Shown: piece after piece, positions 10,601 through 49,100 of the stretch
How the letters are laid out: each line of letters begins with the position of its first letter
Position numbering within the stretch: position 1 is the first letter of the stretch
Position numbers and translations under genes: made by a program
Notes under the pieces: model-generated
Database searches by the model: none
Seen by the model: the letters and a program-made list of their open reading frames with translations, nothing else
What the model was told of the DNA's origin: nothing
NCBI GenBank assembly: GCA_033439255.1
Contig: CM065884.1
Span: forward strand, 248,001-312,000
Length of the DNA: 64,000 bases
Source: Hericium rajendrae
Taxonomy: Eukaryota > Basidiomycota > Agaricomycetes > Russulales > Hericiaceae
Reading direction: 5' to 3'

Positions 10601-10699
10601 GGCAGCCTCGACCTCGACGATGGTCGTGCGACGATTACTGTCAATACTGGTGTCAGTCTCGAACCCTCTGGCGACGGGAGTATTGGAACGGGGAGCCAT
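7680..10699 (-). pseudogene. FunK1-type kinase, copy 2, with premature stop
   Basis: Paralogue of the gene at 983-3984 in inverted orientation, with the same exon pattern and the same kinase motifs (HRD loop, LIDLDNA, VHDLESFFWVLCW). At 10436-10438 the codon that is TGG (Trp) in copy 1 reads TGA, stopping translation after about 87 residues in a region that is otherwise unbroken. Downstream exons stay open. The C-terminal tail is a little longer (…KDNSSRSGRH) because the stop codon of copy 1 is missing. Loss of function is the likely outcome, unless translation restarts downstream or the assembly has an error here. It lies between shugoshin and SUV3. Confidence 0.75.
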
Positions 10700-22311: not shown

Positions 22312-22993
22312 ATGCGACGACGTCCGCTTGCCTTTATACTTCTCTGCCCGTCGACGCGAGCGCCGATGCGATGATCATTGTCCTTTCCTAGGAACACAAG
22401 GGCGCGCCCCAGATGGCGCGCGTTGTACTCTGCCCGCGGCGCCTTGTTCCAGAACGGGCAGGCGCGGGCCTACGCGCCCTCGCGCATGCAGCGCGTCGGA
22501 CGATGCTTGCTTTCGGGCTTCTGCCCTTTGTTCGAATTGTTTATGCATACCTTTTCTTCTTTGCTCCTTTCTGCTCTTTCTGACTCTCGCCTAACGGACG
22601 ATGCATAGTGTACTCTTTGTACCCCTTGCGCTTTGTATTCAGATTTCCTTGTACTTATTACTATCGATGTATTAGATTCAGTGTCAATGAATAGTCAGTT
22701 TTGAATACGCACCAAAGTGTCTGGGTTATGGGCGTCCTGGGAGGTGCTGGCTGTTCGAGTTCGTCGTGAGGCCGACACGCGACAGAAAAACTGACGCGAT
22801 CAATTACACAGGGACCCATAGAGTCAAATATGGCTGATAAGATTAGATCTCACAACAGCGATCCCCCTCCGGGCATGAGGTTGAAGCTACAACTTGACCG
22901 CCAAGCTCGCAAGCACATCGCTATCTTCTGCCTTGAAACCTGACATATCATAGCCCAGAGACCCATGCCTGAGGCCTCTAACCCAGCGAAACG
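22312..22993. other. Finger-gene 3' UTR and spacer, with the transposon empty site
   Basis: The 3' UTR contains a block around 22380-22520 (CTTGTTCCAGAACGGGCAGG) conserved in all three family members, including near 56540. CCGACA at 22772-22777 is the undivided counterpart of the CCAACA target duplication flanking the transposon in copy B. The rest corresponds to the RTC1 upstream region. Confidence 0.75.
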
Positions 22994-28000: not shown

Positions 28001-29534
28001 TCGCCTGTGGCTACGTCCGTCGACGCCTGCTCACCTCCGTCGAGCGCGAAGCCTGTCCAGCCGCCGAGTGGTACTTCTCTGCGCCGACCCACAGCGTATG
28101 CGATCACTGTCGCGTCTTCCTGGCCTGTCGCGAGCTCGTCGAAGAGGCGATGCGAGGACGACGACGTTGTCGAGATGCCAAGGACAAAGAGGATCAAGGA
28201 GGTAGGCGGGTATCAAGGGCTTGTCTGGCCTCCACCTGCTGCAGGGTCTTCGAAGAGGAGACTTGAAGACGACGAGGAAAGCGTCGACGAGCCGTTGATG
28301 AAGAAGATCAAGGAGGTAGGCGAGTATCAAGGGCTTGTCTGGCCACCGCCTGTCGCGGGATCGTCGAAGAGGAGACTTGAAGACGATGAGGAAAGCGTCG
28401 ACGAACCGAGGATGAAGAGGATCAAGGAGGTAGGCGAGTACCAAGGGCTTGTCTGGCCGCCGCCTGTTGCAGGATCTTCCAAGAGGAGACTTGAAGACGA
28501 CGAGGAGAGCGTCGACGAGCCGTTGATGAAGAAGATGAGGAAGATGAAGAATAAGAAGCGTCCGGCACGTAGTGCTGAGACGCAGGCGCGAAGGGTCTCT
28601 ACGGAGGCCCTTCGCCCCCACCAATTAAAATTTGCGGGTCCCCCGCGCAGAGACATCTCCGCAACTGAGGACCGCACAAAGTTTTCTAACTGCGGGGTCG
28701 AAGGGCCGGAGCAGACAACCTCCGGCTCGTCATCCCAGACCACGCAGGTTGAGAACGCAACCCCCGCGCCCAGCGAACCCAGCCGGGCACCGCCCGCGTC
28801 CGAGAAGAAACTCCGCTGCCCGCATCAAGAAGTATGCGGGAACACGACGGGCTTCAAACGCCAGGCGGAGCTCAACCGTCACCTCTTGTCGGTGCACACG
28901 TCGAAGCTGAAGTGCCCGCACGGCTGCCCCATCTCGCGCAGGGACGCGCTCAGTCGTCACCTGAAGGACCAGCACGGTTGGGAGGAAGGCGCCGCGGCGA
29001 GGAAGGCGAGATTCATCGACGAGACGACGGAGCGCGCGCCGCGATCGGGTGGAGGAAGTGAGGGAGCGACGAACTGAATGCGACGACATCCGCTTACCTT
29101 TATACTTCTCTGCCCGTCGACGCGAGCGCCGATGCGATGATTTTTTCCTTTAGAGGAACACAAAGGCGCGCCCCAGATGGCGCGCGTTGTACTCTGCCCG
29201 CGGCGCCTTGTTCCAGAACGGGCAGGCGCGGGCCTACTCGCCCTCGCGCATGCAGCGCGTCGGACGATGCTTGCTTTTGGGCTTCTGCCCTTTGTTCGAG
29301 TTGTTTATGCATACCTTTTCTTCTTTGCTTCTTTCTGCTCTTTCTGAACTCTCGCCTGACGGACGATGCATAGTGTGCTCTTTGTACCACTTGCGCTTTG
29401 TATTCAGATTTCCTTGTACTTACTTCTATAGACGTATCAGATCCAAGGTCAATGTATAGTCAGTTTTGAGAACGCACCAAAGTGTTATGGGGATCTTGAG
29501 AGGTACCTGCTGATTGTTCGAGTTCATCGCGAGG
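25060..29534. repeat. Segmental duplication, copy B (left part)
   Basis: Counterpart of 18590-22771. The homology resumes at 45893 beyond the transposon. Copy B is the one joined to the complete RTC1 gene, so it is probably the original location. Confidence 0.88.
26385..29077 (+). CDS. C2H2 zinc-finger protein with Ser/Pro/Tyr repeats, copy B
   Basis: Predicted 877-residue paralogue of the gene at 19928-22311. Exons 26385-26831 and 26891-29077, intron phase 0. The plan is the same, but the repeats have expanded: about five units ending YSPVATSVDSCSPTW instead of four, and four SSKRR…EDDE segments instead of three. The two C-terminal finger segments (CPHQEVC…ELNRHLLSVH; CPHGC…LSRHLKDQH) are preserved almost unchanged. 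Both copies are open throughout, so both may be expressed. Regulation cannot be judged, but the upstream 1.3 kb is also duplicated. Confidence 0.8.
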
Positions 29535-29540
29535 CCAACA

Positions 29541-29567
29541 TATGGCAACTATACTGTTCAATAATTC
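29541..29567 (+). repeat. Transposon left terminal inverted repeat
   Basis: Starts TATGGCAAC and continues with CTATACTGTTCAATAATTC. It pairs with 45866-45892 at 24 of 27 positions; the mismatches are at positions 6-8. CCAACA directly precedes it. Confidence 0.9.
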
Positions 29568-29668
29568 ATTTTTCATGGTGGTTGGACAAATTTTGCCAAA
29601 AGTGCTGGAAGTTTTAGGAAATTATGACATTAATAGTTGAAGTTCAGGCTTTTTCAGGAAATTTGATG

Positions 29669-29977
29669 AGGTTACCTCAGAATGAAATAAATTATTAGAG
29701 GTTCTGATGTCTAGCATATTCTATCTGAGGTTCAGACAAATATAAATACTGCAGGTTTTGGTCTAGACAAAAATGTACATAGGTTGCTGAAGGTGTGAAG
29801 AAAAAGTTATATTCAGATTAGTGAGCTTAAAAATGTTTGAGGTTGTAGCTATAATATACTCTCAAGAGGTTGACTTTATGAATTTTTACTTTAGGTTGTC
29901 AATATTTAAAGTTGTAACAGGTTCTCTCTTTTAAATTTAATTGAGATTTTTCAATCTTCAACAATTTGTGCTAGGTT
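29669..29977 (+). repeat. Left subterminal AGGTT array
   Basis: Ten copies of AGGTT, all on the plus strand, lie in about 310 bp of AT-rich, non-coding sequence (for example 29669, 29728, 29781, 29840, 29893 and 29973). Fewer than one is expected by chance. The right end carries the same word in inverted orientation. Such subterminal words commonly bind the transposase. Confidence 0.65.
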
Positions 29978-30298
29978 CAGGATGCTATAGCTGTGCATAT
30001 TTTCTTCAAGATTGAGATTTTCAATAGTCCTCCAGCTAAGTTTCTAATAGAGGCAGATAATATAGCCATCTATTTTATCTCCTAGTTGTAAACATTGTAT
30101 AGGACTGCTAGACCAGTGATAGTAGAGTTAAAGAACATAGATAATCAGTTCTAAATGAGTCATCAGCAGGATAGGTGAGTAAAATTAGAATCAGAAGTAG
30201 AGAGGAGGTTGCTGCTGAATAAATATGAGAATATATGTAGATAAGACATATAGTCTGAAAGCTATCACAAAAACATAACCAAGCAAGCTGCTAAAATT

Positions 30299-32619
30299 CT
30301 AAAATCTCATAGCAGGAGGAACTGAAATATAGGTACCCAAAGAGGCAAAATTTGTAGGAATGACATTGGAGCCAGCTTTGCCAGAATGCCCTGCAGCTTT
30401 GGCTTTTTTGAGGGTGTCAAATCCAGTCTCTGCAGACTGAAACATAGTGGCCATATTAAACCAAACCATGCTACCTCTGCCTTCCTCATCCTCCTGTACC
30501 AAAGGTGTGCTGTTTTCAGGAGTAGGGGTCTTAACATTAATGTCAGTGACCACAAACTTGAATTCTGACAGATCTCAATTAGCTAATTGTTGGACTTGCA
30601 TAAGGCAAAATGCACATACCATTGAGGTCAATGTTGAAATGAAAGAAAAGAGAAGATGGATATACAAGCAGGATCCATGGAGGAAGCTCAATAATGATAC
30701 CAGCCTCCCAAAGCACTAGCCAAGATTTCTTGGTATGATTAAAATTAGCTGCATCATGCATAGTTAATTATAGCTATCTGAGATAAGAGGCAAGTAACTC
30801 ACAGGTAGGGCTCACATAGGCCATTAGTGCACACACACTGATGGGATTTTTGGAATCTGCATGAGGGAGAGTGTGGATGCGATGCTGGCCAGGAAAGATC
30901 CCATTTATGCATAAATTGTAGAAAAGTCCAAACTGAGGCTCAATGCCATACTGATTCTTATGCCATTGAGCACACTTTTCAAATCTCTCCTTGATCTTGG
31001 GAAATGCCATCCCTACTATCTGAGATACCCATTTGCTAATATATAATAAGCATACTAACATCAATGAAGTCCAAAACTGCAGGACTTACTTTAAGCGAAT
31101 AATCAGTGGATTCTGCAGAAATGTCTCTACCCTTTGTAGATTCTGCTTATGCCAGCCAGTAAGATCAGGTTTCTGTTATAATAAAAGTAAGTAAGATAAA
31201 CAAACAAAGCCTTAGCTGCTCACTTTTGCAGATTGCCTGTAGTAGCCAATGATACAAGGAAAATGAGGGCCCCTTGCTTGTTTGGCATAATAGGACTTGA
31301 CTTTGGTCTTCTGCAAGGAAGGGTTGAGCAGATCATGAACCAGCTTCCAAATTTTATCTTTTTCCTCTTCCAACCATAGTGCAGGAAATCCTCTATAGAC
31401 AAAGGGCCTCTCTTGCTTGTCCACTATCCAAAGGGCAATTTTTTCACTGAATAACTTACAGATAAGTTGTACAACTTAATTTAGATCTGAACACTTACTC
31501 TGATGGACGCTGATAAGGAATAAACATAAAGTTCTTCATAACCTCTAGAAGCTCAGAATGCTCCCTATCCTCACTAGCAGCTGAGTACATCTTGACAATA
31601 TCCTCTCTGGCCCATTTAGGAGGAGGAGAGCCTTGCCACCCAGTTGAGGTTGTTCGAGCCTCCTCAGCAAGATCATAGGATGTCAGCATCATCATCTGCC
31701 CAGTCTTTAGGCTTCTCATCTGCAATCGCTTCTGACGATCTGCTTCTACATCCTGGCGCTTGGCTGATACAGCCTCATTGCGTCGAACGCGAAAGCGCTC
31801 ACTTGACCCTTGACCACGATGCTTACGCTTCTTTTGTCCTGGAATAGGATCTTCATAGGAGAGATCTAAATCAACACTGGCTTGTGGAACATCAATGCTG
31901 GAATGTCTCAGCCACATAGCATAAGTGTGAAGAAATTACAAGCTTACAGCCAATATCTCCCAGGATCATAAGATATATCAAATTTTGGCTCTGGAATGAG
32001 AAGGCCAGTCTTTTTGTCCCCATAAGGATTACTAGAGACTTTTTTGACAGGTCCAGATTGTTTATCTGAAAAAAAACTCAGATGTGAGCTGCCTGCAGAA
32101 TGTCTCAAGCTTACCCTCATCCTCCTCAACCTCTGCAAGCTATGATAATACCATTCAAATTTAGCCCAACACTCAGGCATAGCAGCTACTCACCAGGTCC
32201 TCATGCTCACTAAGGTCATCCCCAGCCTCACTCAGTGGAGGCAGCGTGGCCACTTCACTGGAGGCATCTGTATCATATCCCAGCAGAAAGGGAAGCTGAT
32301 CATCCACAATCTCACCCTCTTCCAGCTCATCCTCTTCCAGCTCACCCTCTTCTAGCTTGGCACCTTCCCTGCTGCTCTTGTCCTGCTTTTGGATGGCCTC
32401 CCCGTCGTCGATGGACCCAGTCTCAGCAACGGCAGCCTCCTCCTCTTCAGTGTCCGAGTCTGGCTCGCTGGTGACACCGAATGCGAACATGTCAGCTGCG
32501 ACTGCGTCCCTGTCTAAGACATATGTCATCAGCTCCATGTCCCGGGCATATACCTTGTAAGTCTGGATGATCTCGGCCATGTCGCACGCCGTGTGGATGG
32601 TGTATTCAACATCCTGCAA
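30299..32619 (-). CDS. TET/JBP-type 2-oxoglutarate/Fe(II) dioxygenase (transposon-borne)
   Basis: Multi-exon gene read on the minus strand from about 32619 (possibly with 5' exons up to about 32830, including RALERQTLFPRNHHHRHSSE) to the stop at 30299. Exons encode, in order, VEYTIHTACDMAEIIQTYKV and an acidic region; a basic linker; RPFVYRGFPALWLEEEKDKI; the block EPQFGLFYNLCINGIFPGQ; then LPHADSKN (H-x-D iron ligands), SLFFHFNIDL (distal His) and EEGRGSMVWFN (Arg for 2-oxoglutarate). The order and spacing agree with the TET/JBP genes expanded in basidiomycetes, which oxidise 5-methylcytosine. It is much more AT-rich than its neighbours. The exact 5' exons are unresolved, and activity is a prediction. 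Confidence 0.6.
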
Positions 32620-32831
32620 AAATAAGAACTAATGTCCCTGCATGATCGCAACTGCACTCACCCGAATAGATACATTATCAGACCTACCAAACAAAGCTCA
32701 GCAGCGATGTCAACAGCCCGGGAGAGGACTTACATCGTAGATCAGTTCAGATGAGTGTCGATGGTGGTGGTTGCGAGGAAAGAGGGTTTGCCTTTCCAGC
32801 GCGCGACTCGGGGCGCACCTGACCAGCATGA

Positions 32832-33588
32832 GGCGCAAGCAGAAGCGCCGGTCGCCATGTGCTCCGAAGATGCCCCGTTGGGCAGCGGCGGTTCCTAGCA
32901 ATGGGATTACCCATTGGCCGGGCCTTCCCATTGGCCGGGCCTTATATGCTAGTGCATGGACCTATGTCCACAGCTGCCAGAATTCTACACCTCACACATG
33001 CCCTGAAGCCCATTGGCGACGGTGCTTGTGCGAGGTGTCCACTGCCAGCAGCAATGGGGAGGCCCACACACCATACACGCATACCAGCACCAGCATGCGC
33101 AGCTCTCGCACGCAGGCTCGTCGCACCGCGCAGGCCCGCCTCCCTGCCTGCGGCAAGCCGCTCGCAGATGACGCCCTCCATGCCCTTTGTGAGCAGCAGT
33201 AGCAGCCGCTCCTGGACGTACTCCGTGGCCTCCGCTCAGCAATCTCAATGGAGAGGGCGCACACGGCAAACTGGAGGGCGAGCACTGATGAGCTCCACCA
33301 TGGCCAGCAGGCGCCAGCCCTACGCTGCGCGTCCGCTGTGGGCTGTGCGCGGCAAGCAGACATCGTAGTCCCGCCCACTCAGCTGCCAGCAGATGACCTT
33401 GGCCACACCCGCAGTCTGCGCCTTGTATTCGAGCATGCCGCTGCGCCGTCAAAGCCTGCGAGCGCGGTATGGCACGTCGAGAAGCGGCCGAGGTACGTGC
33501 ATGCCTTGCCGGAAACGGCCTGCAACTCTACAGCCAGGGTGGGGGTGTAAGTACTGGTCGCACATGCAGCCAGCCAGATTGAGCCATG
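32832..33588. other. GC-rich stretch with unplaced minus-strand exons
   Basis: The minus strand encodes fragments such as VAKVICWQLSGRDYDV and YVQERLLLLLTKGMEGVICE that read like protein exons, but they are interrupted and were not assigned to a family. Base composition changes sharply here from the AT-rich dioxygenase gene. Confidence 0.35.
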
Positions 33589-33855
33589 AACTCGTACTCA
33601 TGCTTCGCATTCATCTTGACGCGCATTATCGGCACGTCGCCTGTATACGTTGATACCGTGTCGATACTAATGAAAAGCCATGGATAATGGCAAGGTCAGC
33701 AAAATACATATCTTATGAACGAAGAAACGCGCACCATAGATCAAGTCGAGGACCTGGCAGTAGACGGCGCCAGTGCCGCACTGCTCGATCTTTGTGTAGT
33801 TGAGCTGGAGAAGATCGTTGATCCAGGCCAAGAGCTCAGATCGTGACTCGCCCAT
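33589..33855 (-). pseudogene. EB1/BIM1 (MAPRE) 5' fragment captured in the transposon
   Basis: Exon 1 (33855-33735) encodes MGESRSELLAWINDLLQLNY followed by TKIEQCGTGAVYCQVLDLIY. Exon 2 (from 33640) continues in phase with GDVPIMRVKMNAKHEYEF, the start of the EB1 calponin-homology domain. After about 65 residues the sequence becomes unrelated, so most of the CH domain, the coiled coil and the EB-homology tail are missing. EB1 is a microtubule plus-end protein. Its 5' end inside a transposon is best explained as capture of a host gene fragment. A short chimeric product is possible. Confidence 0.75.
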
Positions 33856-33899
33856 GGTTACAAGATGAATGGAACGCGACGACGACGACAAAGAACGGC

Positions 33900-34760
33900 G
33901 TGGAGGGTGACGATCGATGCAGAACGCAGCAGAGTCGCGCGCGAGTTCGACAAATCAGTGCGCCATGGCCGGCGAACCCTAACCCGGATTGCGGCACTTG
34001 GACCGCGTCATGCTCGATCGCGGCTCTCCGTCTCAGCGAGATCTGCACCCCCGATAACTCTGCAACTTAGTCATTTTTCTGCTAGCTAAAGCACCAAGGG
34101 AGTTCGATTTCGTTGTTTTTCTAGCTACTAAGGACCCTCGCAGGACCCAGTTGTGCCCTTGGCCCTGGCCGTGTTCATTTGTACGTTCAACGACGGCTTC
34201 CCGCCCTAGCCCTTTATATACTCGACTTGGTCGTTTTCGACCGTGTCTTGGTAGATGACCTCGGACGCCTCGCGCGAGGTGCCGCAGATGGAGCAGTACC
34301 TGAGGACGGTCAGGACCCAGTCCATTGCGCACATCTTCAGGACCGTGTTCTTGGCGAGAATATCACGATAGCGACATATTTTCATGGTGCGATAACACGT
34401 TGCTCGCCTTTCCGCCTTGTCATGCGAGTCCGCGGACTATCCGTCCAACACGACATTGTGCCAGCGACACCACCGTCTGCGATACCGACGGCCGCGAAGA
34501 GATCTAGCCGATCCCTTCGATGTTGCTGGCCCTCAACCAAGCCGTATCTCGCAGCGACGGTGCAGATCGCCAACAATCCGGCCAGCCGACTCTCGGAGAC
34601 CGTCGCACACGGCGCCGCCGCTATGACCTAGGTACGTCGCACTTTCAGCGCACACGAACCACAACACGGCCCAGTCACGGCCCACGACGCCTACATCACC
34701 GCGCGCACAATGCATATCACCCCGCAGCGTGTCTTGCGCTTGCCTGCGCCTACGTCGTGC
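33900..34760. other. Transposon interior, no clear gene
   Basis: One minus-strand segment at about 34200-34345 (KMCAMDWVLTVLRYCSICG, ending EYIKG) looks like a protein exon of unknown origin. Otherwise nothing was recognised. Confidence 0.35.
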
Positions 34761-37010
34761 GGGGAACTTGACGATGACGCCCCTGGCGTCTGTCGCGCGA
34801 TGCGGGGCCTAGGTCGCGGATGACGACGAGCATGACGCCGTATCGTCGAGGGTCGTCAGCGACGTCGCTCGTGGACCGGTGACCTGCTCGCCTACATGCC
34901 CCTTGTCGTGACGCCCGAGCACGGTAGTGAATCTGCAAGGCGCGCCCGTGAGTATGGTCACCTAGTCCACGAAACAGGACTCACCGGTAGATACGAGTAG
35001 ATATATATTGCTGTAGAAACTTGACGATGACGCCCTTGGCGTCTGCGGCGCGACGCGAGGCCGAGGTCGTCGGGCGCTGCTATACAACGAGCATGCGCGC
35101 TGCGCCATCGCATGGAATATCTATGTCCTCGGTAGACAGGCGATTCCCGCGGCCATTCGAAGCATCCGAAGGGTCCTGGATACCTTTGGATAGATGCAGA
35201 TTGGATCAGACATGCTCACCGGTACGATATAAACAAATACGGCTTACAGGGAAACTTGATGATGACGCCCTTGGCATGTGTGGTGCGCCGGCAGGCCACA
35301 ATCGTGGCGCGCTAGCAACAACAAGCATCCGCGCCGCGGAACGTCAGTGACGACGTTCGTGGATCGAGGAGATACTTACCTGCATACCTCTTTCCGTGGC
35401 GCGTGAACGACGGCAGTGAATCTGCAAGGCATGCAGTGAGTACTATAATTGATTCTGCGAGAAAGGACTAACCATGATATGCGTAGATATAACTTGCTAT
35501 AGACTCTTGACGATGACACCCTTGGTGCCCATCGCGCGGCACGAGGCCGAGATCGTATGTCCTGGGCTGGGTCGTCAAACGGACATCAGTGACAAGCTTC
35601 GGGGATCGGTGGGCCTCTTCCATCGTGCTGCAATGCATCAACGGCGCGGCGAATGTGCCAGACGGCGGTGAGTATTGTCTTTAATCCGATGCAGCAGTAC
35701 TGACCGGTGAGATATACCTTGCAGAAGAAACTTGACGATGACGCACTTGGCGTCTATTGCACGACACGAGGCCGAGGTCGCAGCGCGCTGGGCTGCGACG
35801 GTCATCTGCGCTGCATCGGGAGGGCACGTCAGCGATGACGTTTATAGATCGGCAGGCTTCCCACGCACATGGCTCTGGTCGTAGCATGTCGATGGCGGCA
35901 TTGAATCTGCGAACCGGTCCGTAAGTACTATCATTAGACTGCAAACCATTATGAAACAAGACTCACCAGTAGATATGAGCATCCACGAGTAACTTGACGA
36001 CGACGCCCTTGGCGTCCATGGCGTAATGCTAGGCCAAGATCGTAGAGCGCTGGGCCATGCTACGCATCGGCGCTGCATCATTAGGGGGGCATCAGTAATG
36101 CTCAATCGTGGATTAGCGAGTCTCTCACCAGGATCGTTGTCGCGTCGTGACGCATGAACAGCGGCAGAAATCTGCCAACACATCAGTCAGTGCCATCATT
36201 GAGTCTATAAAGCGAGGCTTACCGGTAGATGAGAACAGATAAAACGTGTATTAGAAACTTAACGATGACGCCCTTGGCGTCAACGGCATGACACCGGGGC
36301 TGGATCCCGATGCGCTGGGCTTGGCCAAGCGTCCGCGCTGCTGCGTTGTTGAGGGAACGTTAGCGACGCTGCTCGTGAACGGGTCAATGTTTCACCTACT
36401 CGCATCTCATCCTGGCGCCTTAAGTACGGCAATGAGTCTGCATGTACGTTGGTGAGTACAATCTTTAATCTGACACAGCGGTACTCACCAGCGGGCAAGG
36501 CGGGCGTGGTGGCGGCAGGGCAGGCGTGACGGCAAGGTGAGCACGGCGAGATAGCGAAGGGCGGCGCGTTGAACTTGGCGATGACACACTTGGCGCTGGC
36601 GTGTTCCATAGCGAAGGCAGCGGAATGGGGCGGCGTGGAGTCTCCACGATGGGTGAGTACATCAACAACCAGATTCGCATGCAGTACTCACCCACAGTAA
36701 GTTCCCATCCCCACCTCGTACTTGATGATGACGCCCAGTGCATCGCACAGAACATGCATGGCGGCCGGGGACTACCGCGCCCAGGCACGTATGATGAAGT
36801 CGCGGGCGGGCGCGCGTCACAGTGGATGACAACACCCTTCTCGGCCCTCAGGCGCGGCCGTATGGCAGGGAGAGTCCGACCTGCCTCCGGCAGAAACACA
36901 GAGATCTGCGCTACAGGTGAGTATATCGACAATGGGGTTCGCGCGGACTACTCACTCCCTGACCATGACGCCGCCCTTCCCTCGCCCGCCCCATATTTGA
37001 CGATCACGCC
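34760..37010 (-). repeat. Degenerate tandem array of about ten exon-like units
   Basis: The word GACGATGACGCCCTTGGCGT, with variations, recurs at about 34770, 35022, 35253, 35507, 35733, 35994, 36259 and 36575, with weaker versions near 36720 and 36997, at spacings of about 230-320 bp. On the minus strand each unit reads like AMDAKGVIVKFLLQ…YR followed by a GTGAGT- or GTAAG-type donor. A second shared motif ending in CAG precedes most of them. The array therefore looks like one exon plus its intron duplicated many times. Whether the exons are spliced together is unknown. Confidence 0.6.
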
Positions 37011-37404
37011 CATCTCTACGCACGCAATGCACGTTGACGTCGAAGACCTTGGCGCCGGAGCATGCAGGGCCCTGGCACATGGAGGCAAGGTGCATCGCCT
37101 TTGGGCGTAGTCGCTCCGCGTACGCCAGCGTCGCCGCTCGCCGCGGCCTCGTGCTCGTCGAGCGCCTTGTGCGCGTGTGCTCCTCCTCGAGTCGCTCGAG
37201 ATCGCGCTTCAACCGGTCGACCTCGAACTGCAGCGAGAAGGGCGCGGTCGCGTGGCTCTCGCCAAGCTTCTTCAACTCCGTGCCCGGCGCCTGCAGCGCA
37301 TTGAGGTTGGATTCGCATGCAGCGGCGCAGCCCTGCACGCCGTGAGCAGGTACACAACCGGTGCGCCGGTGACCTGGGATGCACAAAAAGGCCTGTGCTG
37401 GCAT
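37011..37404 (-). CDS. Coiled-coil protein fragment next to the repeat array
   Basis: One open minus-strand frame contains LNALQAPGTELKKLGESHAT followed by LQFEVDRLKRDLERLEEEHT, a clear heptad coiled coil, then a basic low-complexity end. No family was recognised. It could be the first exon of the repetitive gene made by the array downstream, or a captured piece of a host coiled-coil gene like the EB1 fragment. Confidence 0.4.
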
Positions 37405-38053
37405 GGTTGAACGCGTCTCTAGGACCGACGCCCCGTTGGCCTGAGGCGAGGCTTGCTAAGGGAAATAAGGGAGGTCAGTAAAGTTGAAACGAAGGTGCGC
37501 CCAGTCAAGGGCGATGGAGAGAGGGGATATGGGCCTGAAGAATGACCGGGATCGCTCATGCAAAAAATGCGCGCATTTTGGCGGGCCCGGTCGTGGGGAG
37601 GAGGAGGAAAGGAGGCCTGTCCTTTTAACGCAGACTGTGGCAGTGACCTTTGTTTACTCTCACGTGAGATCATGTGACAGGATCGGTCCGGTGCTTGACC
37701 AACGACGCGCCTTGGCCGATGTAGCAGCTAGGCTCTAGGCCTGAGGAATACTATTAGCTGCGCGATAAATAGCACGGTCATTTGCGCCAGCCGTAGCTAC
37801 GTTTGACCCTGGGCAGGATTCCGGCAATATAGCAATGATGAGCACCTGCAGAAATTCCGCCAGCCAGAGTGCTTGGACCAAGAGTAAAATTCCAGAAAAA
37901 AAGCCGGAAGCCACCGCTCATTCAGCATGCGTTCCGTGCTCTGCAGGGAGCCGCCTCGGGCATCAGGCTCAGGCTTCTAGCACCAGCTAGCTCAGTGAGT
38001 TTTCTAGCTGGCTTTTAAGAATGGGCTAATAATCCAGGAAGCCAGCCGATCCC

Positions 38054-39687
38054 ATGTCTCGTCCACGGGAAGCCATGCATGCCTTTCTCATGGAGGCACA
38101 CAACATCACGATCGAAGCTCGATTTGTCTGCACGTCCCTGCCAAACGTCGACTTGGCAGCTGTGGAGCGAGCTGCACTTCAACTCCATGCAATCCGCCGA
38201 GTTCTAGCAGACTTGAACGAGCCGTTCACATCCTTAGAAGAAGCTCAGTCCCTGATTCGTTTTGTGGACAGTTTCCTCCGACCGTTGGAGGCACATATGG
38301 ATGCGCCGCCAGTGCCTCAGTCGACAGCAATGCCTCGGGTGTATACAGGCAAGTCAGGCAGGCCTACATTCGATCTGAACTTGGAACGAGCCCTGCAGCT
38401 GCACTCGCTGGGCAACTCCTGGAGCCATGTTGCGGCTGCAATGGGGGTCTGCAGGGGCACGCTTTACAACCACTTCCATGCGCATGGCATGTCCACAGCA
38501 CGCCCAACTTACACCGACATTGAGGACGATGACCTGGATGAAGCCGTCGCCAAGATATCGCTGCAGCACCCCTTTGAGGGCTCCTCGCTGGTCCAAGGCC
38601 ACCTCAAGTCTCAGGAAATCTATGTTACAATGGAGCGGGTGCAGGCCAGCTTGCGGCGCGTGGATGCACTTGGGGTGATAACTCGGTGAGCTCCCTCCTC
38701 TTGGCAAGACCCAGCTCCTGAACTCTTCCTCCAGGTGGTCAGGCATTATCAAACGCCGTGTGTACCGTGTTCGTGGCTCCAACGCGCTTTGGCATATGGA
38801 CGGCAATGAGAAGCTGCGTCCATGGGGGTTCTACATCCATGGTTGCATCGATGGCCACTCCCGACTCATCATATACCTGGCTTGTCGCATGAACAAGAGG
38901 GCCAGGACCGTCCAAGAAGTCTTCATACAGCAGGGGATCTCCGTGTATGGCTGGCCCAGCCGTGTTAGGGGAGATTTTGGTACAGAAAACAACCGCGTGG
39001 AAGATGCCATGGTCCAGCACTGGGGCGAAGGGCACCGAGCATTTCTTCGTGGAAGGTCGGTTCTGTGATGCACAGTCCTGGTATCCATGGCTGGCTCACA
39101 ACGTTTTACTCAGATCACTTCATAATGTCCGCATTGAGCGCCTATGGCGCGATGTTCGCAAGGGGACTACAGAGATGTACCGCCAGGTATTCTTCCACCT
39201 AGAAGAACGCTCTCTTTTAGACCTGGATGATGCTGTACACCGGGCTTGCCTGGCGCTGGTCTTTGAGCACCGCATTCAGGCATCGCTCAACCGGACCATG
39301 GATGCGTGGAACCATCACAAGGTTCGCACCGCAGGCAAGCGCACCCCAATTGCACTGTTTGAGATTAGCAGGGAGATGGCGATGCGTAAGGGGTATTGGA
39401 CAGGTGATCCCGGCGATTCTCTGGAGGATGCAGCTGATCCGTTATATGGCTTTGATGGCGATGCTCCCCTTCCTCCTGCAGACGAGCTAGGGGAGGATCC
39501 CATCCACACGCAGCCAGAACTAGGTGGTAACGTGGAAGCAGATGGCACAGAGGAGATGGGTATGGTCCAGCAGCTCTTATTGGACTTTGATTTCAGGGCT
39601 GATGACGGAAACTGGGGAATTAACATCTACTGCGAAGCCGTTCTACTTACCAACAGTCGTCTACATATGAGCACTCATGTACCGTAA
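38054..39687 (+). CDS. Integrase-core (rve-like D,D,E) transposase
   Basis: Predicted 508-residue transposase, three exons: 38054-38685, 38735-39055 and 39114-39687, with all phases consistent. N-terminal helices are followed by a helix-turn-helix region (SWSHVAAAMGVCRGTLYNHF) and the catalytic domain: LWHMDGNEKLRPWGFYIHG (first Asp), IDGHSRLIIYL, RGDFGTEN (second Asp) and NVRIERLWRDV (Glu), with 34 residues between the second Asp and the Glu. The tail is acidic. The family is widespread in mushrooms and fish genomes, and the DNA-cleaving triad appears intact. It is the only recognisable transposase between the terminal repeats and is the likely mobiliser of the element. Confidence 0.8.
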
Positions 39688-39697
39688 TATTAAACAG

Positions 39698-42600
39698 TTA
39701 CTTATAGGAATTCTTCTTGCCCTCCAACGCATTGTTGAGAGCCGCCGTAATCTCAACACATATCTCCGTCCAAGACTGGTCCATGTTAGTGTTCTTGTCC
39801 GGGTGGTAGGTCTGTAGTAAGAATAGCATCAGAAGCAGGCTGGCTGGGTCTAGGGGAAGGGCTCACCGCCATCAGCTTTTTCCACTGCTGCTTTCGAGTG
39901 AGGTCCCAAAAGATGCCATCTCCATATGATATGCGGCGTTGTGGGTCCAAATGCGAGAAGTAAGTCAAGACTGAAGCCACCGTCGTATCCCATTCCAAGA
40001 TGGTGTGAAGCGACTGAGCCTTCTGTACCTGAGTTCTTCCTGACAACGGCTCAGGGAATGCCTTACGAGGCTGACGTGGTACAAGTGAAGCCGGCGACCT
40101 TGACCGATATCTTGCAGTTCCTTTATGAGCTGGGCGTGGCCGAGGTCGAGGCCGAGATCCACTTGAGCTGGGTTTCGGTGCGTCACTACTCTCAGCCTCC
40201 CTCTTGGGTTTTTCAGATTCGTCCTCAGAGCCAGATGGAATCTCCACATAAGTCGGCTTGGAGCTCTTCTTTCCCTTTGAAGGCGCAGGGGGCTTCCATT
40301 CCGATTGTTTTTGGGTAGGTGGTGGCCTACTGGCCTTTTGCTGTTTTTTTTCGCTTAGAATTTCTGAGACGTCTGGAAATTCCACATCTATGCGAGATGT
40401 TAACAATAAACCTAGGTCTCTGAAGCTGAACACCTGACCTGAGTCGTCACCAGTCAAGTCAAAAAGAGGTGGTTTCTTCTTTTTATGTCCGGAACCATCA
40501 GACTTAGGTGGATTTGGCTCTACGTCGGAGAGAGAGTGACTAAACCAAGGGCTATGAGATTTCAAAGTCTATCAAACAGGACTAACTCGAAGCCTACTTC
40601 AAGCCTCCACTCCTAGCTGGGCCTCGACTGCGTGTACGCGGTCCTTGCTGAAACTCCTCTGCATTCTCATGCTGGACGTCATCTCCACCTTTCTTCTACC
40701 CCGATGAGTTAGCCCGGTATGCTATCACGAAGAAGCATATAAGTCGACGAACATTGTCATTCTCTGCCCGTTTGGCTTTGCCATGTACAGTGGACTATTG
40801 GCATCAGAGAATTTAGTATTTCGAAAGGAAGAAAATTAGGTCGGGCTTACCTTGACGTAGTTGCGAAGCTGAAGGCTGAATTCACGGCAGAAAATGTTGA
40901 ATATGTTGAGGAACTCCTGGTAGTATATCTGATCCACAGGGAATGAATCCAGAAAGGGGTATACGACTGATGACATCAGCCGTAGCAGTCCCCAGTTGCC
41001 TCCATAGATGTTGTTGAACGTCATACTGAGATGATTGGCATCGTCACCATAATCAGCTTTCAGGGAAGATCGCAGATCCTCAGGTTGGCAGGAATGAAGA
41101 TGAATAGATGCCATCTCCATACTGTTCCAATCTTCTTGCGTGGCCACCTGAACAGCCGAAGGTTCAAAGCGTGAGGTGGTAGTCTAGGGATTTTAAAGGA
41201 TAATTACTTACGGTCAACTTGTGGTCGACTTGAAGCAGTTGAGCTCCAAGCGATCTTATGTCCTCTGGGTCATAATGATGGCGATCCACCGTGCATCGGA
41301 AATTGGTGACCAGCTCATCGAGAGCGATCACATAACCCTGCAGATTTATGCAGAGCTGACTTCCTGAATGGACGACAGAAGCCTCCATTGCATGAGCAAC
41401 CTCATGGAGCAGAAATAGACCATGGACTGCCAGTTCTATCCCATAGGGCCCGAGAGCGAAGTCCTTTCTCATAACATCTTTGGCTGCATCAGCTGCCTGG
41501 ACGTCTTCGGAGGAAATGGCAGGGATCCGTGTGGCGAGCTCTACCAAGAACATGATGCTATCAAGGAAATCTGGACCGACCATGTCCCATAACAGGCTGG
41601 GCGAATGGATTCCTTGACCGTTCCTCCATTTCTGAACGCTGAGATCTACAAAAATATGAGCTGTCTCTACCTTTTTGTACGGACCTCCTATAGCGCTTGG
41701 CCACTGTAAATAGAAAAGCTCAACGGCAGTCAAATCATCAAGAAAATTAAACCCCAACTTACCCAAGGCTTAGAGGGCTTCGGAGGACAGATGTTGATCA
41801 GAGTTCGAGTAAGGGCGTCATACGCCGAAACAAAGACATCCGCAAAGGGGTCTGACTTTGAGCTTGCATCAAATGCAGCTTTCGATCCAAAATCACCCTG
41901 ATCTTGGAACGCAGTGCTGTGGCGTGATCCCAGATCCTACAGATGGTCTTTAGCATGAGAATTGCTTTAATTAAAGCGTATGCACCTGAAATTCCCTGTC
42001 GCTGCCAGCCGTGGGTATGCTGGCCGAGGCATGTGGCTTCTAAATTATAAACAATCAGTACAGTGAGAGGCAGTTTGCATAGAAAGGTACCCGCTTTGAG
42101 ATTTTCAGGCGGGTCTTGTACAATATCCTGATCTGCGTCACTCATGCTATCACCTAGGCTATGTTTCTCCGCATGAGATTCTGCCTCATTGTTTTCATCT
42201 GCCTGGGAGCTCAGTTCACTTTCACTATCGGTATCTTCATCTGCGACAGCACCCGGTCCAGGCAACAAAGAAATGTTGTCAGAACCTGCGACGAGAGCGA
42301 TGAAGACTGGTTTTGAAAATCCGGTAGAGCTGGAATACCCCAAGGCTGACGTGGCCCTGCAAGATAGCCATAAGTACATGACATGGCCAGTGGCTTAGAG
42401 AGGGCAAACCGTTTCATTTCTTCGTAGTCAACATTCATGGTATCAGGCACCGGTCGAAGATAGCGTGAACCTCCCTTTTTCTCTCCAGTGCTAAAAAGAA
42501 CCGTCCAGATGCGAGACTGATCTAGCTTATCGCCGAAGTTGTCCAATGCCTTTTGAAATGCGGGTACATTTACAAAATGGCTGGAGATAAGGCGATCAAC

Positions 42601-43554
42601 CTCACTGCTTGATGCCATTTTGGAGATAGTTATGGTGCGTGTGAGACCGGCCAGATGTAGATTATTCAAGCTAACAGGCAAGATCTGGGTCAGGATTGTC
42701 GATCCAATATAGAAAGTGAAGAGACTTACAATGTAGGCCCTGGCTTACGATATTCTCCTCTATGGACACGACCTGTGCGCTCTGCCAAGAAGACGGTGAA
42801 TTTTGTAGTCGGAATGGGCTTGGAGGGCTTGGGAGGCTGAGAATTAGTACGTTTTCCTGTTGAAGAGCAGGCAGACTTTGATCTGCTTTTGCTACGGGCC
42901 TCCGGTTTTGCATCAGACCTCTTACGCTTCAAAATGGTTTCACTCAAGCGATTTGCTGCATCTTGCTGAGCCTGTGACGTTGAGTGGGTAAACAAGATAA
43001 ATCTAGAGATACAAACAGCTGGAACGTACCTTGGCTGCCGGGTAGAAAGGCTGAGGCCCTGATCCGCCAGCAATCTTTGCCTGTCGAAGCTCAGCATGTG
43101 CTCTAAACATGCCTCCTGCATCTGGACTGCCTGCAGACCTGCCGAAGTCAGAGGTGGATGTGGGGCGTGAGTTATGCATGGACTCCTGCGTCTTTGAGAT
43201 GAAGGGAGGTGGAACAGGGGGTGAGGGAGCTGGCTGAGCCAGTGGAGCGGAAGACTGCTGCAAAGTCATCTCAGTCACGACAAAGGTAAAATTTTTAGAC
43301 ACAGGCCTCACCGAAGCAGGACTCTGTGCGCCAAAAAATGAGTGTTGCTGTCCAGAAGGCAAGCCATTGGCTGGAAGGATCTTATGCCAGAGAGCGACAT
43401 GGTCACACAACAGACAATGTAAAGTAACGAGAGTAGAGGGGTTGTTTACGAGGTGAGAATCCTCTCCACGAGGAACGAACTGAGGACAATCTCCACAGCC
43501 TCTGAACCGGCAAAGGCCCAGAGACTGGGGAGTTATCTCCCAGGGGGCAGCCAT
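39698..43554 (-). CDS. Large multi-exon protein with J-domain-like C-terminus (transposon-borne)
   Basis: Read from ATG at 43554 to the stop at 39698-39700, with about ten or more introns; inner boundaries are only partly settled. The N-terminus has a Cys-rich, probably zinc-binding block (GLCRFRGCGDCPQF … LHCLLCDHVALWHK). A Ser/Pro/basic linker (KRKRSDAKPEARSKSRSKSA) follows. The middle is helical and contains RHHYDPEDIRSLGAQLLQVD and VHGLFLLHEVAHAMEASVVH. A disordered region then leads to FWDLTRKQQWKKLMA spliced to TYHPDKNTNMDQSW, which carries the HPD signature of a J domain. Related proteins are common in mushrooms, but their function is unknown to me. A role with Hsp70 in the host or in transposition is conjecture. 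Confidence 0.55.
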
Positions 43555-44069
43555 TGCGTTAGCAGAGAATGCCTGGCAGGCGACTCGTGCTAAAGAGACC
43601 AAACGAAAAAGGAAGGTCCCAGTGCGGAGGCAAGCTGACCTGCTAAGGGAGGCGGGGATCGCCACCGCTGATTTTGTAAGCCGAAACATAAGGCAGCTGC
43701 AGCACAGACATTCAATTGAATCGACCTGGCATTCATAAGATACGATACTGGCATCTCTAACATAGTTGCATTAGTGGATATGTTGTTACTCACGTAGTCA
43801 CCGACGTCGCCGGTGAACAGCCCATTTTGCCTGCTTTCTGAGCCTTCAGGCCCTGCCGCATCAGCCGCCAGTACACTGGTCAGACTGGGTGGTCCGGCAG
43901 ATAAAACAGTGGCTCTGCACGCAGGCACAGCCAGGCGTGTCACCGCAGGAATGTGGACGCAGTGCGGAGGTTGTTGTCCGGCCAGAGCCCAGGTGCGAGC
44001 AGGCCGTTGAGCTTGATGTCCACCTCGGAGTCAGAGCCGGTGTGCTGGTGCGACAGGTGCATGTGCGGT

Positions 44070-44305
44070 GTGCAGATGCTGTGGTGCAGGATGAGCAGGA
44101 CCTTCAGGACGAACAGCAGGGCGTAGATAGCAAGGTACAGGTGGATCTGGTCGGGGAGGAAGCACGGCCGGTCGGCGAAGGTGCACCACTCCGTGGAGTT
44201 ATCATGCAGCAGGTGGGGGTTGAGGAGCGAAAGGAGGTGGAAGCCGAACAGTGGATGCCCACGGCCATGGAGAACGACTTGATGCTTACTTTGTGCACGC
44301 ACCAG
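44070..44305 (-). pseudogene. Cdc1/Ted1-like metallophosphoesterase 3' fragment
   Basis: The minus strand reads VHKVSIKSFSMAVGI and, after a frame change, GFHLLSLLNPHLL … FADRPCFLPDQIHLYLAIY, then a hydrophobic segment ending LLILHHS. This resembles the C-terminus and final membrane segment of fungal Cdc1/Ted1 phosphoesterases, which remodel GPI anchors or control ER Mn2+. The catalytic domain is missing, so this appears to be another captured host fragment. The identification rests on a short stretch. Confidence 0.4.
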
Positions 44306-44562
44306 GGCGAGATGGGGTGGTCTTCGTTGGGCGGCCTAGTGCATTTCGTGAGTGTTCTGTGCAGTCTTATTCGCGAACCCAGTACTCACCTGAGTTCTGT
44401 GGGATACCGCGTTTGGCTAAGCTTCCTAACATCCAGGCCACGCAGCAACGAGCGACGCCTACTTGGAAGGACAAGGCCTCCTTGTCCATATCGTTGGCGG
44501 CCTTATGTCGGAGTCATTCTCCGGACATGTTTGAGCCCTGCGCATGCTCATTCAGCGCTCAC

Positions 44563-44943
44563 CTAGATTTGCTTGATACAGTACCCTACCCACCTAATCT
44601 CCCAGGATGCAGGCCCTGCGGCCAGCGAAGTGCATCCTTGAAGCATAATTCTTTCTTGTCGACACCAATGGGAGACCGTTGGCATCGCCGCATGTGATGC
44701 AGGCACTGGGCTCAGCCTGGTGTTGTTCTTCAGGCTTCCACATATTTTGTAAGTGTCCCGTGCAGTGCGATTGAGAATGAAGAAGGCGCACTCAATCTGG
44801 TCAAGATCGTTGGATGTGTTCCACGTCTTAGAGAGGCGACGCATGTCAGACAGTTTGCAGTACACGTCCAGGTCCTGTAAAATGAAGAACGAAGAACGCA
44901 GTGATCTGGATGGAAATGATAGGTAGAAACAATGAGCGGTCAT
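44563..44943 (-). CDS. Unrecognised short frame in transposon right part
   Basis: A 126-residue open frame includes LQDLDVYCKLSDMRRLSKTW and IECAFFILNRTARDTYKI, which look like real protein sequence rather than a chance frame. An acceptor-like CAG lies just before LDVYCKLSD. The family is unknown. It may be an exon of a larger or captured gene. Confidence 0.3.
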   Translation of the reverse strand: MTAHCFYLSFPSRSLRSSFFILQDLDVYCKLSDMRRLSKTWNTSNDLDQIECAFFILNRTARDTYKICGSLKNNTRLSPVPASHAAMPTVSHWCRQERIMLQGCTSLAAGPASWEIRWVGYCIKQI

Positions 44944-45892
44944 ACCTAGAGTGACCAGAGCATTGGCAATCGGAAAATTAGCAAGTTCTCCTCGAACAGA
45001 GAAGCACTGATTTGCGGACCTGGAGCTTCTCCCAGAGTGTAGAGTTTCAGCGCGTGGAGCCCGTGAAGTGCTTCAACGAATGATCATGTCCAACACCTGC
45101 AGTGTCAGCATGTTCGACTCGCCGAATAAGCCCATTCTGGCATCGGATTACCGCATGCCAGACATCGCTTACTGCACCCTAAACGAGTCTTGCGGATGCG
45201 CCTGCCATCAGGAAGGCTGCTAGCGCTAGTGCAGGTGGTGCATTGGCCATTGAGGTCATTCAATGCTAGATATTGAGATCGTCAGGGTCATCAAGAGGGC
45301 CACAACGTGAGTCTGCACCTGTTCTGTTGTCCTGACGAGTGCAATATCACGAACGTCAACTTTTTCTGACACGCATTCACAACATAGGGGCCCATAATCA
45401 ATACGCTTGACTAAACTGCAGCGTAAGATGCCGGGTAGCAGTAGTAGACCCACATGGGCGGTCGCCGGTGATGCAGTCCGCGCCGCGTAGCGATCCTGCC
45501 AAATTGACGTATTCAGCAATATAATCCTTCGGAGGAGACCCACGAACCTACAACATTGTTATCGCAGTAGCGACCTCCTACAGGAATACTGCCACACCGA
45601 ACTTACAGTAAAGTGGAAGGCAGACTCAAACCTCCATTGTTTTGTGTCGTGATGTGAACCTCACTCGGATTTCCAAATCGGGCCACGAAATTTGATCCCG
45701 AGTCGAACGTCCTTCAAAAAAGGCCTATCCCACAAACGACTACAACTTCTCGATCCATTGGAAAAGGTCTATCATTTCTGACGACGCATTCTCAGCCTAG
45801 CCTTCATTTTTTCATTACATACAGAACTTCGTCATTGTTTGAGAACCTCCGACATATTTGTTCCGGAATTATTGAACAGTATAGGACCCATA
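44944..45892. other. Transposon right end, mostly non-coding
   Basis: No gene is recognised. Minus-strand frames such as SPPKDYIAEYVNLAGSLRG near 45540 may be part of an exon. Four AACCT words (45545, 45629, 45657 and 45844) mirror the AGGTT array of the left end. The terminal inverted repeat occupies 45866-45892. Confidence 0.5.
45866..45892 (-). repeat. Transposon right terminal inverted repeat
   Basis: Read on the minus strand it begins TATGGGTCC and continues with CTATACTGTTCAATAATTC, matching the left end. CCAACA (45893-45898) follows directly and duplicates 29535-29540. Confidence 0.9.
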
Positions 45893-46128
45893 CCAACACG
45901 CGACTGACACGAAGAAAAACTGACGCGATCAAATATACAGGGACCCATAGAGTCAAATATGGCTGATAAGATTAGATCTCAGAACAGCGATCCCCTCCCG
46001 GGCATGAAGTAATGGTTGAAGCTACAACCTGACCACCAAGCTCGCAAGCACATCGCTATCTTCTGCCTCGAACCTTGACATATAACATCTCAGAGACCCA
46101 TGTCTTAGGCCTCTAATCCAGCGAAACG

Positions 46129-49100
46129 ATGCTCACACCGCAAAGACCGCGTCGACAGTCTCTGCATCTCAATACAATCCCGTCTCCCCGCCCCGCGACC
46201 CCATCCGAGCTCTACTCGGACTCGCGGACTCATGGCTACCAGGGCAGCACCAGGACCGCGAAGCTCCCCAGAGCGACGCCAAGCGGCGGGGGCGCGATCT
46301 CGAAGAGCGAAGACGGCTCGCGATGCGTCGTGGCAGGCCGAGAATGTGGGTGGTTAGACGGGTACACTCTGCTCCTAGCTCATATGCATGTCCAGCGCTA
46401 CGCATTCTGCGCATGTCGGAGACACCGACGACGTTTTCGCCCGAGCATAAGGCTACGGTCGGGCGCGGGGGGCATCGCATTGATGGCTCGCGGAACTTTT
46501 GGGTTGGGAGCGGGCTCAAGATTGACAGCGTTAGCACGGACGTGGCTTGGTGTCGTCAAAGTATCTTGTCCACTTCCAACATTGGGTTTAATGACAACGC
46601 TGACGTGTGAGACATAGATTTCTCCAACAAGATCTTGACTAGCGCGCGTAATGGTGAGCTTATCATGTGGGACTTGGACAAGATGGGCTACTCGAAGTAT
46701 GGTATGTCTGGATTGGACCTTGACTTTCGATTCTCTCCTTTGTTGAGACAGAATACCAGAAAGAAGAGCTCGAGATCACCTCCGTTCAATCCACAAGGTC
46801 GTGGTCTCGCCGATCGTCCCCTACTATTGTATGACTGGATCCGCTGACGGTGATATACGGGTCTGGGTACGTAGAAACATGCACCCGTTCCGTTAAATTT
46901 CTTATGGTTGTTTCAGGATCTACGAGACATCACAACCTCATTAATACGAATACACCATTCGACTTCCGTCCGAGCAATTGCCTTCTCGCCCAGTTCCACC
47001 TATCCCGTCCAGGCAATTGTAGGTCTTGACAATGGTAGTCTTTACCGGTAGGTCTACTCCCGATCCATTAATGCGACACCATTAACTATCGATAGATGGG
47101 ACCTCAAGATGGGCCAGCGCGGTCAGCTCGATCGCATACCCGTAGCCCACACCGGCGATATACTCGATCTGGACTGGTGCAGCACATCGACCTTCACAGC
47201 GCAGAACACCACCTTCAGCTCGTTCCCGGGCCTCGGCGTCTTCAGCGAGAACTCGGCGTCCAGCAGCTCCAGTTCCGGTGGGTCGACCAACATGGGCTGG
47301 ATTGCGAGCGGCGGCCTCGACCGCACCGTCAAAGTATGGGACCTGACGAGCGCCGGCGCATCGCACATCGCGCACGTCCCAACCTACACACTTTCTACGT
47401 CCTTTCCGGTGCGCAAGGTGTTATGGCGCCCATCGTACGAGTGCGAGCTTGCCGTGGTGTCGAATGCCGAGTTTGGGACGGGCTCGAGCCAGGACCTGCT
47501 GGGCGGAGGAGGTCAGAGCGCAACGGAGGCACCCGACCCGGAGCAGTTGTCGAAGAGCGACGGCGAGGAGGCCAAGCAGCCGACTAAAGCGTCCGGCGAT
47601 ATCGGCGACGCCGTCGAGATCTGGGACGTGCGGCGAGGCTACGTCGCCAAATGGCGAGTTGGAGGTTCTTCTTCGGAAGGCGGTGCTACAGGTCTGTACA
47701 TGCCACTTTCGTCTGAATTTGATTCACCTTCGAATCAGATATTGAGTTCGCCGATTCGCATGCGCTCTGGGTGCAGCATGCCTCGGGGACGTTCTCGCAG
47801 CTTGATCTGCGCCATTCGTATCGCCCTCTGGACGCCATCCCCAGAGTGGCTACGACATGGGAGGCTTCCGGATCATTCGCGTTCGTGGCGGATAAAGCAC
47901 CACAATGGGAGGTCCCTTATGACGATATGTAAGTCTATTTCTCCAGAACATGGTTGGCTTGGTGATACTAATGTAAAACAGAAATCCCGCCGTGCTCCCC
48001 AATCCCAAAGGGAAGCTGAAGGCGCTAGGTGATGGATCTTTCAGGCCTACGAGTCAAGACTTGGGTTATATCCCGTATGAAAATACTCCGGAAGATATGG
48101 AAGCTTTTGCTACCATGGCCAGAGGGTATGTTTACGAGGGTGCAGATCGACACACTATCTGCGTTACCAATGCTGAGGTGAGACGGCGTGCTTTCTGTGA
48201 GCTGTGTCCACTGACTTCATATGCACTTAGGTGGCGTCGAACGCCAATCGTGCTGATGCTGTACAGACTTGGATGCTTCTTCAATCACTTATACCCCCGT
48301 CCACACCCTCCCCATCTCGTCCGCCATCTCCGCCTCTCTCTCCTCTGCCATTTGTTGGGTCTTCGACTCTGCCCCATTCCATCTCCGCTCCTGCTGCTAT
48401 ACCGACTATCTCAGGATCACAGAACCTAACAAGCTCACTTCTCCTTCCCCTCCGCACATCATCTTCTGAACCAACGTGGACCTCGCCACAGAGCCAGACC
48501 AATCTCAGCCCGAATCACTCACCTTCCCGTAACGGCAAACGGGGATCATCGACGTCAAATTCGCCGTCTCCCCGAAGGGTTTCCAGCACTGCGTCCGCTA
48601 TAACAGTAAGCCCCGTGGCGTCCACCAGTACACCATCTACATCCTCCCGCTCATCCTCACTATTCTCCCGGCGGCAGTCTAACGCCAGCTTCTTCCCGCG
48701 CCCGCGTGCGTTCTCCTCCTTCCGCAGACCCTCCATCTCGAACCCCTCGACCGCACACGGCGAGCCCACCAGCGCGGCGCCCAGCCTGCGCGGCGTCGGC
48801 GAGGGCGCACTCGACGACTCCGACTCAAGCGGCGACGAGAGCGACGGGCACCCCAAAGACCAGCTGTCCCCCGTGTCCCCAGAACACCGCCCGCGCCCGC
48901 CCTCCGCCGCCTCCTCCTCGACCTTCTCCCTCCGCAACACCCTCCGCAACACCGCGCACCCGAGCCCGCTCTCGCACGTCGCGGGCCAGCACACGTGGAC
49001 GGACGAGGAGCCCGACGACGGCAAGGACGACGACGGCTCGTCGCCCTCGCCCGCGTCGACCGACACCGAGTCGTGCAGCGCGTCGCCGCCGGGCTCCGTC

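Follow-up and report, generated by a model that had tools for sequence, protein, structure and literature searches.

The 64,000-nucleotide window analyzed here (the window is this whole stretch of DNA) contains an element of 16,352 bp, positions 29541-45892, that by its sequence features is an IS3EU-type DNA transposon (Table 1). It is apparently autonomous and combines a divergent TET/JBP-like gene with pieces derived from the host genome. We consider it probable that this is a cut-and-paste transposon of an Agaricomycete that carries its own TET/JBP-like dioxygenase, that the enzyme relieves silencing of the element, and that host DNA has been picked up on the way. The class name IS3EU, the TET/JBP-like gene, the host-derived pieces, and the CpG depletion were all absent from the original prediction made on this DNA.

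Table 1. Features of the element and of its empty counterpart, in positions of the window. C-numbers here and in the text (C3, C4, C6, C11, C12, C14, C16, C17) are contigs of the host genome assembly.
Feature	Positions	Strand	Basis
Empty target CCGACA in the other copy of the duplication	22772-22777		sequence
Target-site duplication CCAACA, left	29535-29540		sequence
Left terminal inverted repeat, TATGG...	29541-29567	+	sequence, TATGGCAACTATACTGTTCAATAATTC
TET/JBP-like 2OG-Fe(II) dioxygenase gene (putative), nine exons	30299-32613	-	hand splice model, paralogues, profile link
P4-ATPase (flippase)-like fragment	33129-33475	-	78% over 107 nt and 68% over 218 nt to C12:513170-513585
EB1/BIM1-like gene fragment	33583-33989	-	89% to C3:3486940-3487347
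Repeat array, units of ~225-265 bp	34752-36489		76% to C4:995703-997436
Host-derived pieces (repeats or coiled-coil-like genes)	36547-37090		71-72% to C11:1777265-1778072
Coiled-coil-like gene piece	37131-37300		76-85% to four genomic places
Transposase, 508 aa, three exons, rva_4 integrase core	38054-39687	+	spliced frame, Pfam
Gene X, multi-exon, tail-to-tail with the transposase	39698-43554	-	model by eye
Membrane-protein-like gene fragment	43917-44327	-	84% to C14:825354-825765
Right terminal inverted repeat, inverted partner of the left end	45866-45892	-	sequence
Target-site duplication CCAACA, right	45893-45898		sequence

Insertion Site and Termini

The original prediction placed a DNA transposon in one of the two copies of a duplicated locus, and the ends, the target duplication, and the empty site support it. 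Its span of 29535-45898 is correct to the base, both duplications included. Reading of both ends confirmed the 27-bp inverted repeats, in which 24 of 27 positions pair in ungapped extension and the three mismatches are adjacent, as well as the 6-bp duplication CCAACA, which is perfect; the termini of the element are TATGG..CCATA. The empty paralogue has, as predicted, a single CCGACA followed by CGCGAC. The proposed comparison of the paralogue with the flanks, joined in silico without the element, gave one alignment of 2,386 bp at 89.4% identity that spans the junction.

The end pattern, with up to three mismatches, occurs twice in the window and in none of 100 dinucleotide shuffles. Within 28001-47000, just one diagonal contains a 27-mer inverted match of at least 24, and three mononucleotide shuffles reached 22. 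The source is a single assembly, in which two loci might have been joined artificially, but the perfect target duplication, the inverted ends, and the independent empty site coincide to the base, and such an artefact is extremely improbable.

Further copies with 6-bp duplications and the same TATGG ends, which the prediction had offered as support, did not turn up: in the 46.8-Mb genome (19 contigs) the end pattern forms no pair besides both ends of this element, which is single-copy in the genome and so gives no sign of recent mobility by its copy number. Since the pattern recurs only as a lone match at C14:31614, the ends are defined by the empty paralogue and not by further copies. The C14 sequence, TATGGGCCCTATACTGTCCAAGTATTC, has three mismatches to the end pattern and is possibly a remnant of a related element.

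The insertion looks intergenic, because the duplicated unit has long putative zinc-finger-type ORFs on its left side (20101-22311 and 26744-29077) and a putative WD40-like ORF starts on the right at 47052; the names follow the original prediction. The tandem zinc-finger-type gene copies hold internal repeats, and their ORFs differ in length (736 vs. 777 aa). Elsewhere in the window, 527-4117 and 7572-11155 form an inverted duplication of 3.6 kb with 89.6% identity.

Transposase and Assignment to IS3EU

The spliced transposase frame has two GT-AG introns and no internal stop. Parts of the protein match the Pfam model rva_4 ('Integrase core domain') with E-values of 3.3e-33 and 1.7e-24, and the rve model weakly (E 0.0016); the HTH-like N-terminus is weak. 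We take rva_4 to be the model of the IS3EU-type DDE transposase class. Complete IS3EU families are described as having TA..TA termini and usually a 6-bp target-site duplication (TSD; PMC10045372), and the fungal TET+ IS3EU elements of rusts as having TAYGG..CCRTA ends and a 6-bp TSD (Kojima 2025, PMC12730594); both papers are cited here and below from excerpts. The element analyzed here combines TATGG..CCATA termini, the 6-bp CCAACA duplication, and an rva_4 transposase with an intact frame.

Two other classes were considered and set aside. Starships differ from this element in the enzyme, which is here a DDE transposase. Mavericks/Polintons have a 6-bp duplication (PMC10045372, excerpts), and they were put aside because the integrase matches rva_4; 19 pieces of the element were scanned with Pfam.

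The genome contains 24 rva_4 matches at 11 loci, and the proteins at the 10 other loci are 29-38% identical to the window transposase over the matched part. A search for inverted ends with 6-bp duplications in 20 kb around these 10 loci gave no convincing pair. Common blocks are present in the C3/C6 and C11/C16 pairs of loci, and their outer limits yield no full elements. Compared with C3, the C6 locus is interrupted by identical 424-bp direct repeats ~6.7 kb apart (L020 2189-2612 and 8864-9287), likely a recent LTR-type insertion.

TET/JBP-like Dioxygenase

In a hand-made splice model, the nine exons of the dioxygenase gene are joined at GT-AG introns without an internal stop; a tenth, 5' exon at 32734-32961 is possible, and the start codon is uncertain. 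The product of ~620-630 aa has the HAD...H...R residues. The motifs HAD, FFHFN, and RGSMVW are invariant in three aligned sequences, and the arginine of RGSMVW is presumably the 2OG-binding residue. The window protein had no direct match to Pfam Tet_JBP, and no TET chain was matched in PDB. The alignment of its profile with relatives from the same genome that lie beside KDZ transposase matches (hhalign probability 96, E 2.8e-9) covers 75 columns, among them HxD and the second H. One of two such KDZ-side relatives scanned against Pfam matches Tet_JBP with an E-value of 2.2e-4 (20.9 bits, below the Pfam cut-off of 34.9) and 2OG-FeII_Oxy_3 with an E-value of 0.0048; the second had no Pfam match. 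An AlphaFold model of a KDZ-side relative, built without an alignment, had a pLDDT of 30, too low to judge the double-stranded beta-helix of TET/JBP dioxygenases. It is on the paralogues and on the profile link to the KDZ-side relatives that the product is called TET/JBP-like, and the gene would encode a divergent dioxygenase of this kind.

With HAD as its HxD motif, the protein does not have the HxE that marks the PE type. Counting along the sequence from this motif, the positions of CcTET G331 and D337 are occupied by N and A, which would speak against a typical AG type. Residue D337 of CcTET is reported to be essential for activity on 5-methylcytosine (5mC; PMC12730594, excerpts). These two residues and the strong divergence of the protein would suit a 2OG dioxygenase acting on another base or substrate (6mA, hypermodification) and not a 5mC eraser. 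However, the CpG depletion described below points to cytosine methylation as the pressure, and the profile link leads to TET/JBP-like relatives; we regard another substrate as possible but doubtful.

Linkage of TET-like Genes to Transposase Loci

Three other close paralogues of the dioxygenase gene were found in the genome, at C11:855.4-857.0 kb, C6:2294.7-2296.3 kb, and C3:3634.0-3635.5 kb. All three have an rva_4 locus nearby, at 0.7, 17, and 31 kb, respectively, with 11 such loci genome-wide, and the nearest KDZ match, among the matches listed, is ~40 kb off. Seven weaker relatives all lie within 2.3 kb of one of the 172 KDZ matches in the genome, and none is near rva_4. The probability of finding all three paralogues within 32 kb of rva_4, a distance chosen after the data had been seen, is (0.0137)^3 = 2.6e-6 with C3 and C6 taken as independent, and ~2e-4 with C3 and C6 taken as one event. 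The latter way of counting may be the right one: the C3 and C6 paralogues adjoin recent copies of one transposase region.

Because the 10 other rva_4 loci gave no convincing pair of ends, the paralogous TET-like genes are rated as neighbors of these loci, not as proven cargo. The arrangement of the two genes is not conserved, since the TET-like gene and the transposase are convergent in C11 and divergent in the window.

CpG Depletion

Different layers lie side by side in the element: a CpG-stripped dioxygenase end, a moderately depleted region of the transposase and gene X, and a host block mostly at host-level CpG. The CpG o/e value is 0.00 in 29541-30298, 0.26 in the dioxygenase gene, 0.72 in the transposase, 0.65 in gene X, 0.82 in 43601-45892, and 1.13 in 32962-37900. 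Both flanks have 1.14, and their minimum is 0.94 over 173 overlapping segments of 2,315 bp, the length of the dioxygenase gene. At the left end the value steps from 1.22 (29041-29540) to 0.00 (29541-30040); no CpG step is seen at the right end, with 1.03 in 45541-46040 and 1.17 after it.

The dioxygenase coding sequence contains 30 CpG, of which only two fall in its 933-nt coding core; 500 permutations keeping codons and protein average 61 and never go below 48. TpG+CpA is raised to 1.28, compared with 1.02-1.03 in the flanks. These values would most simply be read as the result of methylated CpG being deaminated while the coding sequence was retained; the CpG-poor DNA could also have been CpG-poor already when the element gained it. 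Also against the plain reading, hypermutation is cited as not detected in Agaricomycotina, although CG methylation in Agaricus bisporus is almost confined to transposons (PMC12730594, excerpts). At four loci of the host genome there are matches to DNA_methylase (PF00145), weak ones at two of these loci.

The other TET-like loci on the rva_4 side are depleted as well (0.32 in C11, 0.13 in C3, and 0.14 in C6), which gives a range of 0.13-0.32 for the four rva_4-side loci, whereas values of 1.02, 0.87, and 1.08 were obtained for the three TET loci measured on the KDZ side. The loss is not special to TET-bearing loci, since the C17 rva_4 locus is also depleted: the ~8 kb beside it (C17:398001-406000) have CpG o/e of 0.0-0.5 in 1-kb steps, and no TET-like paralogue was found at this locus in the genome search.

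Host-derived Pieces

Comparison of the element with the rest of the genome gave 16 matches, its own locus not among them, and the host-derived mosaic takes up ~4 kb of its length. The source genes of two pieces are presumably a P4-ATPase (flippase)-like and an EB1/BIM1-like gene. The EB1-like fragment includes upstream flank and start codon, an exon with an intron, and a portion of the following exon; its CH domain match (E 0.0042) falls below the cut-off. The retained intron sequence points to pick-up as DNA.

In the block 33541-37540, CpG o/e is 1.08-1.36 in 500-bp steps, and this central host block was probably acquired later than most of the CpG loss. For the P4-ATPase-like piece the value of its step is 0.84, and for the membrane-protein-like piece the steps give 0.73-0.77; since both are below the host level, the pieces may have been acquired at more than one time.

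The central mosaic might instead have arisen when other mobile DNA was later inserted into the element in nested fashion. The pieces at 34752-36489 and 37131-37300, which match arrays or several genomic places, would fit such an origin, but the EB1-like and P4-ATPase-like pieces consist of gene fragments, and no further clear terminal repeats stand out among the best (longest) 25 of the 31 inverted pairs in this region. We therefore give nested insertions a limited chance and prefer capture by the element.

The apparently broken host fragments indicate that accidental capture happens in this element, and the dioxygenase could likewise be a passenger of an IS3EU transposon, caught by chance and unused. 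Unlike the host fragments, however, its gene runs undamaged through nine exons with introns of the GT-AG type. Moreover, rva_4 loci are found near the three close paralogues as well, and the CpG state of the gene differs from that of the central block. A mere passenger is thus unlikely, and we retain the dioxygenase as a component of the element.

Gene X

The original prediction that the element carries non-transposase genes holds for the TET/JBP-like gene and for gene X. The latter is possibly damaged, since its exon model, made by eye, leaves one junction near 41.9 kb without a solution. One exon that was checked is single-copy in the genome. Seven exon-sized ORFs of gene X scanned against Pfam had no match, and an AlphaFold model of one exon, built without an alignment, was weak and all-helical (pLDDT 54). 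The C-terminus contains an HPDK-like motif, which, as we assume, recalls J domains. An alpha-kinase was also considered as a third gene and rejected: its five matches in the genome all lie outside the element and more than 50 kb from any rva_4 locus.

Proposed Mechanism and Comparison with Known Elements

The following scenario can be proposed for the element. The DDE transposase would bind the TATGG..CCATA ends and join them to the target with a 6-bp stagger, leaving CCAACA on both sides; the duplication itself is observed, and catalysis is expected from family membership. The dioxygenase would oxidize 5mC on the DNA of the element and so relieve silencing by host CpG methylation. Past methylation would then explain the CpG o/e values, with strong loss at the dioxygenase end and a moderate one across the transposase and gene X. 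The central host pieces would have been taken up as DNA, intron included, after most of this loss. In sum, the element may protect itself against silencing and at the same time move host DNA; we infer its enzyme activity, mobility, and self-protection. A broader generalization is speculative and rather improbable: Agaricomycete IS3EU elements might form an anti-silencing, gene-shuffling lineage, in which a TET/JBP type outside PU, AG, and PE keeps a methylated, CpG-stripped element active and host genes are picked up. In this view, expression of the dioxygenase might be driven by the captured EB1-like upstream region and start, which precede its gene in the same orientation.

TET/JBP genes borne by transposons are believed to act against DNA methylation, a function described as not experimentally validated (PMC12730594, excerpts). 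The ends of the element are known to the base, its transposase is intact, and an empty paralogous site exists, which makes it a good test object for whether the enzyme protects its own element.

TET-bearing IS3EU elements have been published from rusts and Tuber, and the TET-linked elements named for Agaricomycotina are Kyakuja, Zisupton, EnSpm, Plavaka, and Helitron2 (PMC12730594, excerpts). Neither the excerpts of this survey nor our literature searches on IS3EU and Agaricomycetes gave a TET-bearing IS3EU element from Agaricomycetes. Relative to these sources, the range of such elements is extended to a host group without entries in the survey.

The TET+ IS3EU elements of Pucciniales have in common with our element the class, the TAYGG..CCRTA ends, the 6-bp TSD, and an internal TET/JBP gene. 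They differ in three respects: (i) their terminal inverted repeats exceed 30 bp, compared with 27 bp here, (ii) their TET gene lies between the transposase and an alpha-kinase gene (PMC12730594, excerpts), of which no match was found in our element, and (iii) our element resides in a presumably Agaricomycete host and contains host gene pieces. IS3EU-1_TuIn of Tuber indicum is likewise an IS3EU element with a TET/JBP-like gene, but of the PE type, defined by HxE, whereas the dioxygenase described here has HxD (PMC12730594, excerpts). As in Pack-TYPE elements and Helitrons, host gene fragments, one with an intron, are found inside the transposon. Pack-TYPE elements, however, are described as non-autonomous and as coming from plants (PMC8903248, excerpts), whereas our element keeps an intact transposase frame.

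The Kyakuja/KDZ elements with AG-type TET/JBP in Agaricomycetes are also transposon-linked TET/JBP systems, but their transposase is different, and so is the CpG state of the loci measured (n = 3 on the KDZ side, n = 4 on the rva_4 side). The host genome contains 46 Tet_JBP matches, 38 of them above the cut-off. Together with the abundant KDZ matches and with eight matches to PF11895, the class II peroxidase extension typical of Agaricomycetes, they suggest that the host belongs to this class. Nine Tet_JBP matches of equal score (66.7 bits) are found on several contigs, with similar runs among the KDZ matches, and these runs suggest a recent burst of KDZ elements.
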